From positions 1 to 34,408 of the forward strand of contig JAOUMD010000011.1 of the NCBI GenBank assembly GCA_029881675.1: 34,408 nucleotides of DNA. Direction: 5' to 3'. Shown piece by piece: positions 29,929 through 34,268 of this stretch (position 1 is the first letter of the stretch; each line of letters opens with the position of its first letter). Made by a program: the position numbers and the translations under genes. Below the pieces are notes generated by a model, which saw nothing but the letters and a program-made list of their open reading frames with translations, did no database searches and had not been told where the DNA came from. Source of the stretch: Minisyncoccota bacterium. GTDB taxonomy: Bacteria; Patescibacteriota; Microgenomatia; UBA1400; PJMF01.

Positions 29929-30213
29929 ATGTCAAAAAAAGGCGGAGGACTATTTTCATTTGTGGTTGGTGTTGCCGCTGGAGCAGCAGCATTATTCCTA
30001 TCTAATGAAGAAAATCGAAAAACAACAAAAAAAGTAGCAAAGAAAGTTGCTTCAAAAGCAAAGACTGCAAAAGCAGAATATAAGAAGAATCCAACTGCAT
30101 TTAAGAAAAAAGTAGTTACAAAAGCTAAATCAACTGCAAAGAAAGTAGTAAAAAAAGCAGTAGCAAAGAAAGCTGTGAAAAAATCTACTAAGAAAGTTGC
30201 TAAGAAAAAATAG
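29929..30213 (+). CDS. YtxH-like membrane anchor with histone-H1-like Lys/Ala tail
   Basis: The 94-residue protein has a glycine-rich start (MSKKGGGLFSF), one short hydrophobic segment (VVGVAAGAAALFL, about residues 12-24), then SNEENRKTTKK and a tail made almost only of lysine, alanine, valine, threonine and serine (KKVVKKAVAKKAVKKS). The N-terminus resembles the YtxH family of small membrane-associated proteins, and the tail resembles the C-terminal part of histone H1 and bacterial H1-like proteins. I infer a protein that sits on the membrane and binds DNA, RNA or acidic surface polymers through the tail. Lysine content is extreme, so homology searches will be misled by low complexity. It stands alone between the pyk terminator and the hairpin at 30245. 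Confidence 0.75.
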   Translation: MSKKGGGLFSFVVGVAAGAAALFLSNEENRKTTKKVAKKVASKAKTAKAEYKKNPTAFKKKVVTKAKSTAKKVVKKAVAKKAVKKSTKKVAKKK

Positions 30214-31542: not shown

Positions 31543-31616
31543 GCGCCAATAGCTCAGCTGGATAGAGCAATTGCCTTCTAAGCAATAGGTCGCAGGTTCG
31601 AGTCCTGCTTGGCGCA
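31543..31616 (+). tRNA. tRNA-Arg (UCU)
   Basis: Acceptor GCGCCAA (31543-31549) pairs with TTGGCGC, and the discriminator is A at 31616. The anticodon loop C-T-TCT-A-A gives UCU. The T arm is GCAGG TTCGAGT CCTGC. CCA is not encoded (CTT follows), so it must be added after transcription. Confidence 0.97.
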
Positions 31617-31643
31617 CTTTATTTAACAACTTAATATCCCTAT

Positions 31644-31718
31644 GGTGCTTGTAGCTCAGTTGGTTAGAGCGTCGGTTTGTGGTACCGAAGGTCGCGAGTT
31701 CGAACCTCGTCAGGCACC
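31644..31718 (+). tRNA. tRNA-His (GUG)
   Basis: The gene encodes the extra G at -1: GGTGCTTG (31644-31651) pairs over eight positions with CAGGCACC (31711-31718), one T-G wobble, so C73 is the histidine-type partner. The anticodon loop T-T-GTG-G-T gives GUG. CCA is not encoded (CAT follows). It follows tRNA-Arg by 27 bases and is probably in the same transcript. Confidence 0.96.
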
Positions 31719-31795
31719 CATCTTACTTTCACAAAAAAAATACTTCTTTACATTTATAAAATTAATTAATATACAATACAGATATTAAAATATTA

Positions 31796-31827
31796 ATCCC
31801 GTCTGAGAATACATAATACAACGGGAT
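31796..31827 (+). promoter_or_regulatory. Hairpin in front of the double ATP-grasp gene
   Basis: ATCCCGT (31796-31802) and ACGGGAT (31821-31827) are perfect inverted repeats with an 18-base loop, ending five bases before the ATG at 31833. A TACAAT at 31772-31777 with a weak -35 upstream could start the transcript just before it. It could hide the start region in the mRNA or be a protein-binding site. Confidence 0.45.
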
Positions 31828-31832
31828 ATAAA

Positions 31833-34268
31833 ATGCCAACAAAAAATTCTACTGTATCAGGTTCTGATTCAAAAGAACAAACTCTTCTCGTAGTAAACAC
31901 TGGAAATACTCTAAAAAGATTTATTTTCCAAGAACTTAAAAAACTTCCAGTCAAAGTAGTCGCAATCAACTCAGAAAAGAACTGGGCAGAACCATATGTA
32001 GATGACTGGATTCTGGTAGATACGACTGATCATCTTAAAACTCAGCTTGCTGTAAAAAAATATTCAAAGAATCACCCTGTTCATGGAGTAATAACTTTTT
32101 GGGAGGATGATGTCTTACTGACAAGTAAGCTTACAGATATGCTTTCTCTTCCCGGAGTACCACTTAAAGTAGCCCAATCTATTCGTAATAAATATGAATT
32201 TCGTGCGTTATGTAAATCTGAAGGACTTCCAACTCCAAAATATATTAAAGCAACTGATCCAACTCATATCGAACATGCAAAACAGACCTTACAGTTCCCA
32301 CTAGTTATTAAACCGGTCTATGGAACTAGTAGTGCTTATGTTATTAAAGTTTTAGATGTAGAAGAATTAGATAATGCACTTAACTACATTAAGACAAATA
32401 TTTCAAGTCTGGTCGAAACTTCACTCCATGAAGGTACTGAAATTATGATAGAAGAGTACATCGATGGAGATGAAGTCGATATTGATATGCTCTTACAAAA
32501 TGGTAAATTGAAATTTTGGTCCATTACAGACAATCATGCTTGTACAGAACCATTTTTTATCGAAACTGGTGATACGTTCCCTTCAATACTTGATTTAAGT
32601 ATTCAAAAACAATTAGTCGATATGGCAGAGACAATCCTAGAGAAATTTGGTGTCACTGATGGACTAGTTCATTTTGAAGCAAAATATACATCAAAGGGTC
32701 CAGTTCCAATCGAAGTAAATTTAAGGCTTGGTGGTGGTTATTATTACTCATTTATCAAAAGAGCCTGGGGAGTAGATCTTATTAAACAAGCAGTTAATAT
32801 TGCAGTAGGCACACATATTCCAAGAATTGAAAAGCCCGCTATTCCTAAAGAATACTTTAATGGTTTTTGTTTTATACAAAATACTTCAGGAATAATTTCT
32901 AGTTTAGATTTTCCTGAAAAATTTGACAAATCTTTGCGGGTACATGATTTTACATTTTTTAATCAACTAGGTGATACAATCCTCACTCCACCGGCTAGCT
33001 ATGATTACCTTGGATGGATTACTGCTGCTGGTGACACTCCACAGGACGCAGAAGATAATTTAGAAAAAGCTAAAAAACTTATTTCATATGAGATAGTCCC
33101 ATTTAGTAATGAATCCAATATGGGTCGTACTCAAAGGACAAAACCATCTTCACCTGCCTGGCTCCAACCACAGTATTTAAAGGGGAAAGCTCGGCTTGAA
33201 AGATTACGTCATACTGACAGAATCCAACAAAGAACCCTCAAAATTGGTATTGCTTGTAATGCATATAGTAATCAAGATGGATCTGTAGAGTCTGAATTAG
33301 CTTCTGTTGGAAATACAATTCAAAATACTCTAAATGCAAGAGGTTATACCACTACTTTCTTAGATTTTAACAATATTGAGTCTGTAATAAATATATTAAA
33401 AAGTAATAAGATAGACCTTGTGTTTAATGTTGGTGAAAGACTGAACTCCTCAAGTTTACTAGAACCTCACATTGCATCACTCTTTGACATGTTTCAAGTA
33501 CCTTATACTGGTTCAAATCCACTTACACTTGGGTTTTGCATAGATAAAATAAAAGTCAAAAAACTACTAACATATCATGAGATACCAACTGCAAAGTGGG
33601 ATTATATCTATAATTTGGAAGAAAAAGTTAGAGATGATTTGTCATATCCCTTAATTGTTAAACCAAGTAATACAGATAATTCAATTGGAATTACTCAGGA
33701 CTCTGTTGTCAGAAACCCAGAGGAATTGAAAAAGCAAATGACTTATGTGATTAAGGAGTTAGGATGTCCTGCATTAATTGAGGAGTATTTAGAGGGAGAT
33801 GAATATGATGTTTCAATTATAGGTACGGATCCAGATAATATTAGAGTTCTCCCACTTTCTAGAACTGTATTTAGTAGGATTCCAAAAGGAATGTGGAACA
33901 TTTATTCTTTTGACTCAAAATGGGCAGAACAAGATTTTAAGTCATATATCGATGAGGAACGCCCTCCTAAAAAGGTTAATAAAAAATTACTTAGTCTAAT
34001 TACTGAGATTGCACTGGATACCTATTCAATACTAGAATGTCATGACTATGGCAGGGTAGAGATAAAACTTGATGGGAAGGGAAATCCTCATGTCTTAGAG
34101 CTTAACCCAAATCCTTCTATCAATACTGCAGACTGTTTGCCTTCAGTTGCAGCTTTGAGTGGAATAGATTATGGAGACTTTTTAGAAGAAATTATTGCTT
34201 CAGCCATAAAGCGTTACAAAGATAAGCCTGCTTATAGTCATTTGCAACCAAGTACTATCTTTAAATAA
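31833..34268 (+). CDS. Double ATP-grasp ligase: amino-acid-ligase-like plus D-Ala-D-Ala-ligase-like halves
   Basis: The 811-residue protein joins two ATP-grasp enzymes of different branches. Residues about 12-425 resemble the L-amino-acid ligase/carnosine synthase branch: a pre-ATP-grasp domain (LLVVNTGNTLKRFIFQELKK), PLVIKPVYGTSSAYVIKV, MIEEYIDGDEVDIDML, the metal site in PIEVNLRLGGG, and a C-terminal region like the LAL_C2 domain (DYLGWITAAGDTPQDAEDNL). Residues about 468-800 resemble D-alanine-D-alanine ligase: DLVFNVGERLNSSSL, QVPYTGSNPLTLGFCIDKIK, YPLIVKPSNTDNSIGI, ALIEEYLEGDEYDVSIIG and the metal site LELNPNPSIN. Both halves keep their ATP- and metal-binding residues, so both may ligate a carboxylate to an amine. 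I infer synthesis of a small peptide or amino-acid conjugate in two steps. Substrates are unknown. The gene is alone downstream of the tRNA pair. Confidence 0.85.
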   Translation: MPTKNSTVSGSDSKEQTLLVVNTGNTLKRFIFQELKKLPVKVVAINSEKNWAEPYVDDWILVDTTDHLKTQLAVKKYSKNHPVHGVITFWEDDVLLTSKLTDMLSLPGVPLKVAQSIRNKYEFRALCKSEGLPTPKYIKATDPTHIEHAKQTLQFPLVIKPVYGTSSAYVIKVLDVEELDNALNYIKTNISSLVETSLHEGTEIMIEEYIDGDEVDIDMLLQNGKLKFWSITDNHACTEPFFIETGDTFPSILDLSIQKQLVDMAETILEKFGVTDGLVHFEAKYTSKGPVPIEVNLRLGGGYYYSFIKRAWGVDLIKQAVNIAVGTHIPRIEKPAIPKEYFNGFCFIQNTSGIISSLDFPEKFDKSLRVHDFTFFNQLGDTILTPPASYDYLGWITAAGDTPQDAEDNLEKAKKLISYEIVPFSNESNMGRTQRTKPSSPAWLQPQYLKGKARLERLRHTDRIQQRTLKIGIACNAYSNQDGSVESELASVGNTIQNTLNARGYTTTFLDFNNIESVINILKSNKIDLVFNVGERLNSSSLLEPHIASLFDMFQVPYTGSNPLTLGFCIDKIKVKKLLTYHEIPTAKWDYIYNLEEKVRDDLSYPLIVKPSNTDNSIGITQDSVVRNPEELKKQMTYVIKELGCPALIEEYLEGDEYDVSIIGTDPDNIRVLPLSRTVFSRIPKGMWNIYSFDSKWAEQDFKSYIDEERPPKKVNKKLLSLITEIALDTYSILECHDYGRVEIKLDGKGNPHVLELNPNPSINTADCLPSVAALSGIDYGDFLEEIIASAIKRYKDKPAYSHLQPSTIFK

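Follow-up and report, generated by a model that had tools for sequence, protein, structure and literature searches.

A fusion of two different ATP-grasp ligases in CPR bacteria is a predicted two-step peptide ligase

We found that a gene of a Minisyncoccota bacterium encodes, in a single open reading frame, two ATP-grasp modules that are each complete and belong to different families, joined by a conserved linker, and that the same arrangement occurs in several phyla. The reading we favour, and consider reasonably probable, is that the protein is a bifunctional, two-step peptide ligase that acts independently of NRPS, with substrates and product that are predicted. The window in which the gene lies is the whole stretch of DNA analysed, 34,408 nucleotides in length.

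Results

Two ligase modules in one chain

The gene is on the plus strand (31833-34268, stop codon included), starts with ATG, has no internal stops and encodes 811 amino acids. The original prediction had seen two different ATP-grasp ligases in this protein, and the domain and fold matches do differ between its halves. The N half (residues 12-430; 31866-33122, plus strand) has the fold of an L-amino-acid ligase. ATPgrasp_N, ATP-grasp_4 and LAL_C2 cover residues 36-421 in Pfam, and in an AlphaFold2 model built from 76 sequences (pLDDT 88, pTM 0.57) residues 12-430 matched the L-amino-acid ligase BL00235 (3vot_A) with a Z of 37.4 and an rmsd of 2.8 over 397 residues, at 24% identity. K120, K160, E282, E294 and R298 are invariant in all 76 aligned fusions and N296 is kept in 73, and the catalytic Lys pair, the metal-binding Glu/Glu/Asn and the Arg of an L-amino-acid ligase are all present. 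In a profile alignment to 3wo1, E294 and R298 align with E324 and R328 of BacD.

The C half (residues 467-805; 33231-34247, plus strand) is a Ddl-like ATP-grasp ligase. Dala_Dala_lig_C (PF07478) spans residues 589-788 in Pfam, and residues 461-803 of the model matched Ddl (8evy_A) with a Z of 32.6 and an rmsd of 2.7 over 304 residues, at 21% identity. K576, K610, E650 and E657 are invariant in 76 of 76 sequences; E756 is found in 74, N758 in 67 (with Asp in eight), R741 in 66, and Glu or Asp at position 743 in 70. The Ddl fold and PF07478 are present, but the HGxxGEDG loop and the NTxPGMT signature of D-Ala-D-Ala ligases are absent. In their place, as had been predicted, the protein carries FNVGERLNSSSL (33423-33458, plus strand) and NPNPSIN (34104-34124, plus strand), and both motifs are typical of the family, which has FNVxERhNxSSL at the loop. 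The N-terminal domain PF01820 had no match in the fusion in Pfam, whereas the canonical Ddl of the same genome does match it. Two adjacent Ddl-like genes related to the C half were seen at eight loci, and genomes of the same order often have such paired genes, in tandem or divergent.

Between the modules lies a linker (residues 428-466; 33114-33230, plus strand) that begins with a near-invariant motif, SxxG[KR]TxR (S428-x-x-G431-[KR]-T433-x-R435; 33114-33137). G431 and R435 are invariant, and S428 and T433 are each present in 75 of 76 sequences. The motif sits in a low-confidence part of the model. In a stand-alone paralogue of the N half, the C-terminal end of the protein precedes it.

The metal-binding acids and asparagines, which the original prediction saw as kept in both halves, are conserved in most or all of the 76 sequences. 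As the catalytic residues are conserved in both halves, both active sites look workable on the strength of the alignment, which speaks against one dead half. A protein with a single active half, the other being a regulatory or structural relic, is decidedly unlikely: it draws on the finding that the window's N half alone, among 76, lacks Asp302, but the catalytic Lys, Glu and Arg residues of both halves vary little or not at all, position 302 is not one at which metal ligands align, and the equivalent site of BL00235 holds Ser.

The codon for residue 302 is GGT (32736-32738, plus strand), and Gly is found there only in the window's copy, with Asp in the other 75 aligned members. Profile alignment to 3wo1, which is a W332A mutant from which we counted the numbering, places this residue at position 332 of BacD, which has Trp. 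Trp332 of BacD is a key residue of the binding pocket for substrate specificity (PMC6920838). As Gly302 occupies the equivalent position, the substrate specificity of the window's N half may be altered. The stand-alone N-half paralogue mentioned above also has Gly at this site. Alternatively, Gly302 may stem from an erroneous consensus in the assembly.

Among proteins with two ATP-grasp modules carbamoyl-phosphate synthetase is the best known, and Foldseek listed it when the whole model was compared. The fusion might work in the same manner, with an activated or carboxylated intermediate made by one half and consumed by the other, and with a product that need not be a tripeptide. We consider this unlikely, since the whole-chain superposition was poor (rmsd about 25 Å), the halves are two different amino-acid-ligase families and not internal duplicates, and the partner genes described below are homologous to peptide epimerases. 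Given the low pTM of the model, the way in which the two halves are placed relative to each other is unreliable, and channelling cannot be read from it.

Distribution of the fusion

The same fusion was sought in CPR bacteria and turned out to be widespread, in many lineages. When 84,980 species genomes were scanned, at least 79 loci were obtained; among the matches listed, nearly all were full-length single open reading frames. These loci come from many CPR lineages and from Elusimicrobia, and also from four Gammaproteobacteria MAGs and two archaeal MAGs. Of 380 evenly sampled Patescibacteria genomes, 16 (about 4%) have the fusion, and it was full length in six of 42 genomes of the window's family, the window's own included, the other five being 51-60% identical. 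Two of the Gammaproteobacteria contigs bear Gram-negative genes (DUF748/AsmA, PqiA), so at least these two placements are likely to be genuine; the two archaeal placements are putative. Besides the window's copy there are at least 75 intact single-frame fusions, full length and 40-60% identical. These rule out a frame error or chimera, which would have undone the prediction of a fusion, as intact frames occur in distant relatives. At one locus the fusion is split, either by a frameshift or by a real break. The between-sequence distances of the N and C halves are only weakly correlated (Spearman 0.21), which suggests that different pressures may act on the evolution of each half.

Cell-wall genes of the same genome

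The Ddl fold and PF07478 of the C half would suit a D-Ala-D-Ala ligase of the cell that has gained an extra domain and serves the cell wall. We regard this as very improbable. A separate ddl, a point raised by the original prediction, is present in the genome; it is canonical (PF01820 and PF07478) and directly follows alr, and there are four Mur-ligase genes. With this alr-ddl pair and the Mur ligases, the fusion is not needed as a Ddl, and a role as the sole cell-wall Ddl is ruled out. The missing loop signature and PF01820 match of the C half argue in the same direction.

On contig C23 of this genome (locus L181, 3719-6470), murD overlaps a MurL-like gene (NF041275, E 7e-72). Glutamate racemase (PF01177) was not found in the genome, which is 94.6% complete, and the MurD2/MurL route is probably the one by which this organism obtains D-Glu.

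Gene neighbourhood

The original prediction held that the gene stands alone behind a leader hairpin, and that this suggests independent control. Neither part of this was upheld. The contig ends at 34408, only 140 bp 3' of the gene, and two tRNA genes, tRNA-Arg(TCT) (31543-31617, plus strand) and tRNA-His(GTG) (31645-31719, plus strand), precede it on the same strand. For contig C19 of this genome, an extension was sought through overlaps with other contigs, and none was found. The putative hairpin (31796-31827, plus strand), directly 5' of the start codon, is weak: it has nine pairs and a z of -2.4 over 56 nt, compared with -1.0 over 141 nt. No equivalent was found in the upstream sequences of four relatives, and no terminator was found. 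As a control element the hairpin was rejected on its z of -1.0 over 141 nt and its lack of conservation, and in the family the gene is often in an operon. The upstream region at one other locus is able to fold a hairpin unrelated to this one. Elsewhere in the window (29929-30213) there is a lysine-rich protein of 94 amino acids with KKAVKK repeats, resembling histone H1.

For 77 fusions we counted the partner genes that lie within 6 kb and are on the same strand. A MurL-like PP-loop gene accompanies 20 of these fusions, in 15 cases within 60 bp. GNAT genes are near 15 fusions, SET genes near 11, an ornithine/DAP-type PLP decarboxylase near 10, a further ATP-grasp ligase near 10 and a DegT-like gene near five. 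An enolase-superfamily gene like L-Ala-D/L-Glu epimerase is near eight, always with a MurL-like gene at the locus. At least one of these partners is present for 37 of the 77 fusions and none for the other 40. In the sample of 380 genomes, 16 have the fusion and nine a full-length MurL-like protein; the two occur together and close by in four, where about 0.4 would be expected. The MurL-like partner is scattered over the family tree (15 changes), as are the other partner genes. Peptide epimerases, a decarboxylase and extra ATP-grasp ligases in these operons strengthen the case for a two-step peptide ligation.

Partner genes were not found in the four nearest relatives of the window's fusion, and an HMM search of all open reading frames of its own genome gave no close partner of the MurL-like, DegT, SET or GNAT kinds; the MLE matches that it gave were weak. 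At locus L119 (5832-13431) the fusion is followed by three ATP-grasp ligases and a PLP decarboxylase, which makes five ATP-grasp modules in one operon. In a Gammaproteobacteria MAG (locus L076, 7125-11685) it is flanked by a GNAT gene and a gene for a PLP-dependent (PALP) enzyme, and at three further loci a stand-alone N-half-like ligase of 448 amino acids overlaps its end. A role in anti-phage defence was considered and rejected, as neither the fusion nor four of its partners had a PADLOC match.

The SET and GNAT genes that adjoin the fusion in several relatives could also be seen as further modifiers beside an enzyme that acts on a protein or ribosomal peptide, in the manner of graspetide ligases or of RimK-like tailing, and graspetide clusters have been reported from CPR bacteria (PMC8939145). 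This too seems improbable to us, because both halves match ligases of free amino acids over their full length and not the RimK or microviridin types, and because no conserved short precursor stood out among the open reading frames of at least 80 amino acids that were clustered from the neighbourhoods, although a precursor below this length may exist.

The MurL-like partner

The MurL-like partner matched no Pfam family above the cut-off and no sequence among PDB structures. Its model (pLDDT 91) matches QueC and QatC with a Z of about 15, a PP-loop ATPase fold. From this fold we took it for a QueC-like protein, and an amide or nitrile step of the QueC kind is possible, but NCBIfam and a homologue in the window's own genome favour MurL. 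This homologue, of 468 amino acids, aligns with the partner (hhalign probability 97.5), and its best NCBIfam match is MurL (E 7e-72, 242 bits), although below the curated cut-off. The partners match NF041275 with E values of 4e-6 to 6e-10 and 25-38 bits, which is less than the curated cut-off of 700 bits. By these scores the partner is MurL-like, and not MurL. In the 380-genome sample, many CPR frames of 840-900 amino acids match the MurL-like profile over part of its length; they are possibly MurD-MurL fusions.

MurL is an ATP-dependent peptide epimerase whose chemistry has been described (PMC5808125, PMC8788868). The presence of a MurL-like gene beside a peptide ligase suggests that the partner may epimerize the C-terminus of a peptide.

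Discussion

In sum, the window's protein appears to contain two working ligases, and a two-step non-ribosomal ligation, as originally predicted, is still its likeliest use in view of the two modules and the operon partners. The tripeptide-like or capped product named in that prediction would follow from the proposed reactions. We propose that in the N half an L-amino acid is converted to its acyl phosphate and coupled to a second one, which gives an L,L-dipeptide and releases ADP. The C half would then activate the carboxylate of the dipeptide, or of another acid, again as an acyl phosphate, and join a further amine to it with the release of ADP, so that the product would be a tripeptide or a capped dipeptide. 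Where they are present, the MurL-like enzyme, the dipeptide epimerase or both may turn a residue to the D form, between the ligations or after them, and decarboxylase, GNAT, SET or extra ATP-grasp enzymes may tailor the product. In the Pacebacteria-like clade of the window the ligase appears to be free of partners, and in the window's organism the specificity of the N half is perhaps altered.

More tentatively, we suggest that these genes form an NRPS-free peptide pathway of CPR bacteria, consisting of a two-module ligase, MurL-like and dipeptide epimerases and variable tailoring enzymes, and that this pathway has spread to Gammaproteobacteria and Elusimicrobia as well. CPR bacteria are regarded as having very little biosynthesis of their own. 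The fusion suggests that these reduced organisms probably make a small peptide without ribosomes, perhaps for use in dealing with host cells. If this is true, a peptide ligase that is kept full length across several phyla, while its tailoring genes are exchangeable, would be a rare biosynthetic trait in CPR. The fusion would also provide two steps of peptide ligation in one compact enzyme, and its MurL-like partner suggests that ATP-dependent peptide epimerases form a broader family, with members that act outside the cell wall.

Each part of this system resembles something known. With the L-amino-acid ligases BL00235, RizA and BacD/YwfE the N half shares the fold, the metal- and phosphate-binding residues and LAL_C2, but it is only 24% identical and is fused to a second ligase; BacD has Trp332 where the fusion family has Asp302, or Gly in the window's copy. 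With Ddl the C half shares the fold, PF07478 and the catalytic residues, and differs in its two family motifs. In roughly one relative in four the operon partner is distantly homologous to MurL; it scores 25-38 bits where the MurL of the window's own genome scores 242, and its substrate is probably not UDP-MurNAc.

There are also known proteins that carry two ligation steps or modules in one chain, such as carnosine synthase and the bifunctional glutathione synthase GshF. One module of GshF is a glutamate-cysteine ligase; Pfam found no such domain in the fusion, whose N half has the L-amino-acid ligase fold. To our knowledge, neither GshF nor carnosine synthase combines a module of the L-amino-acid ligase kind with one of the Ddl type. 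In the mycosporine pathway, MysC, an ATP-grasp ligase, is followed by the Ddl-like MysD, but these are separate proteins that act on a cyclohexenone, unlike the single-chain fusion. GshF is cited in PMC13338154, and PMC11983340 gives MysD as an ATP-grasp ligase. No report of the fusion or its operons was found in the open literature, to which our search was largely confined, most subscription papers lying outside it. Dipeptide ligases of the ATP-grasp type have been described before, as have Ddl and bifunctional ligases; the pairing of an L-amino-acid ligase with a Ddl-like module, together with the operons in which it occurs, appears to be new in the literature covered by this search.
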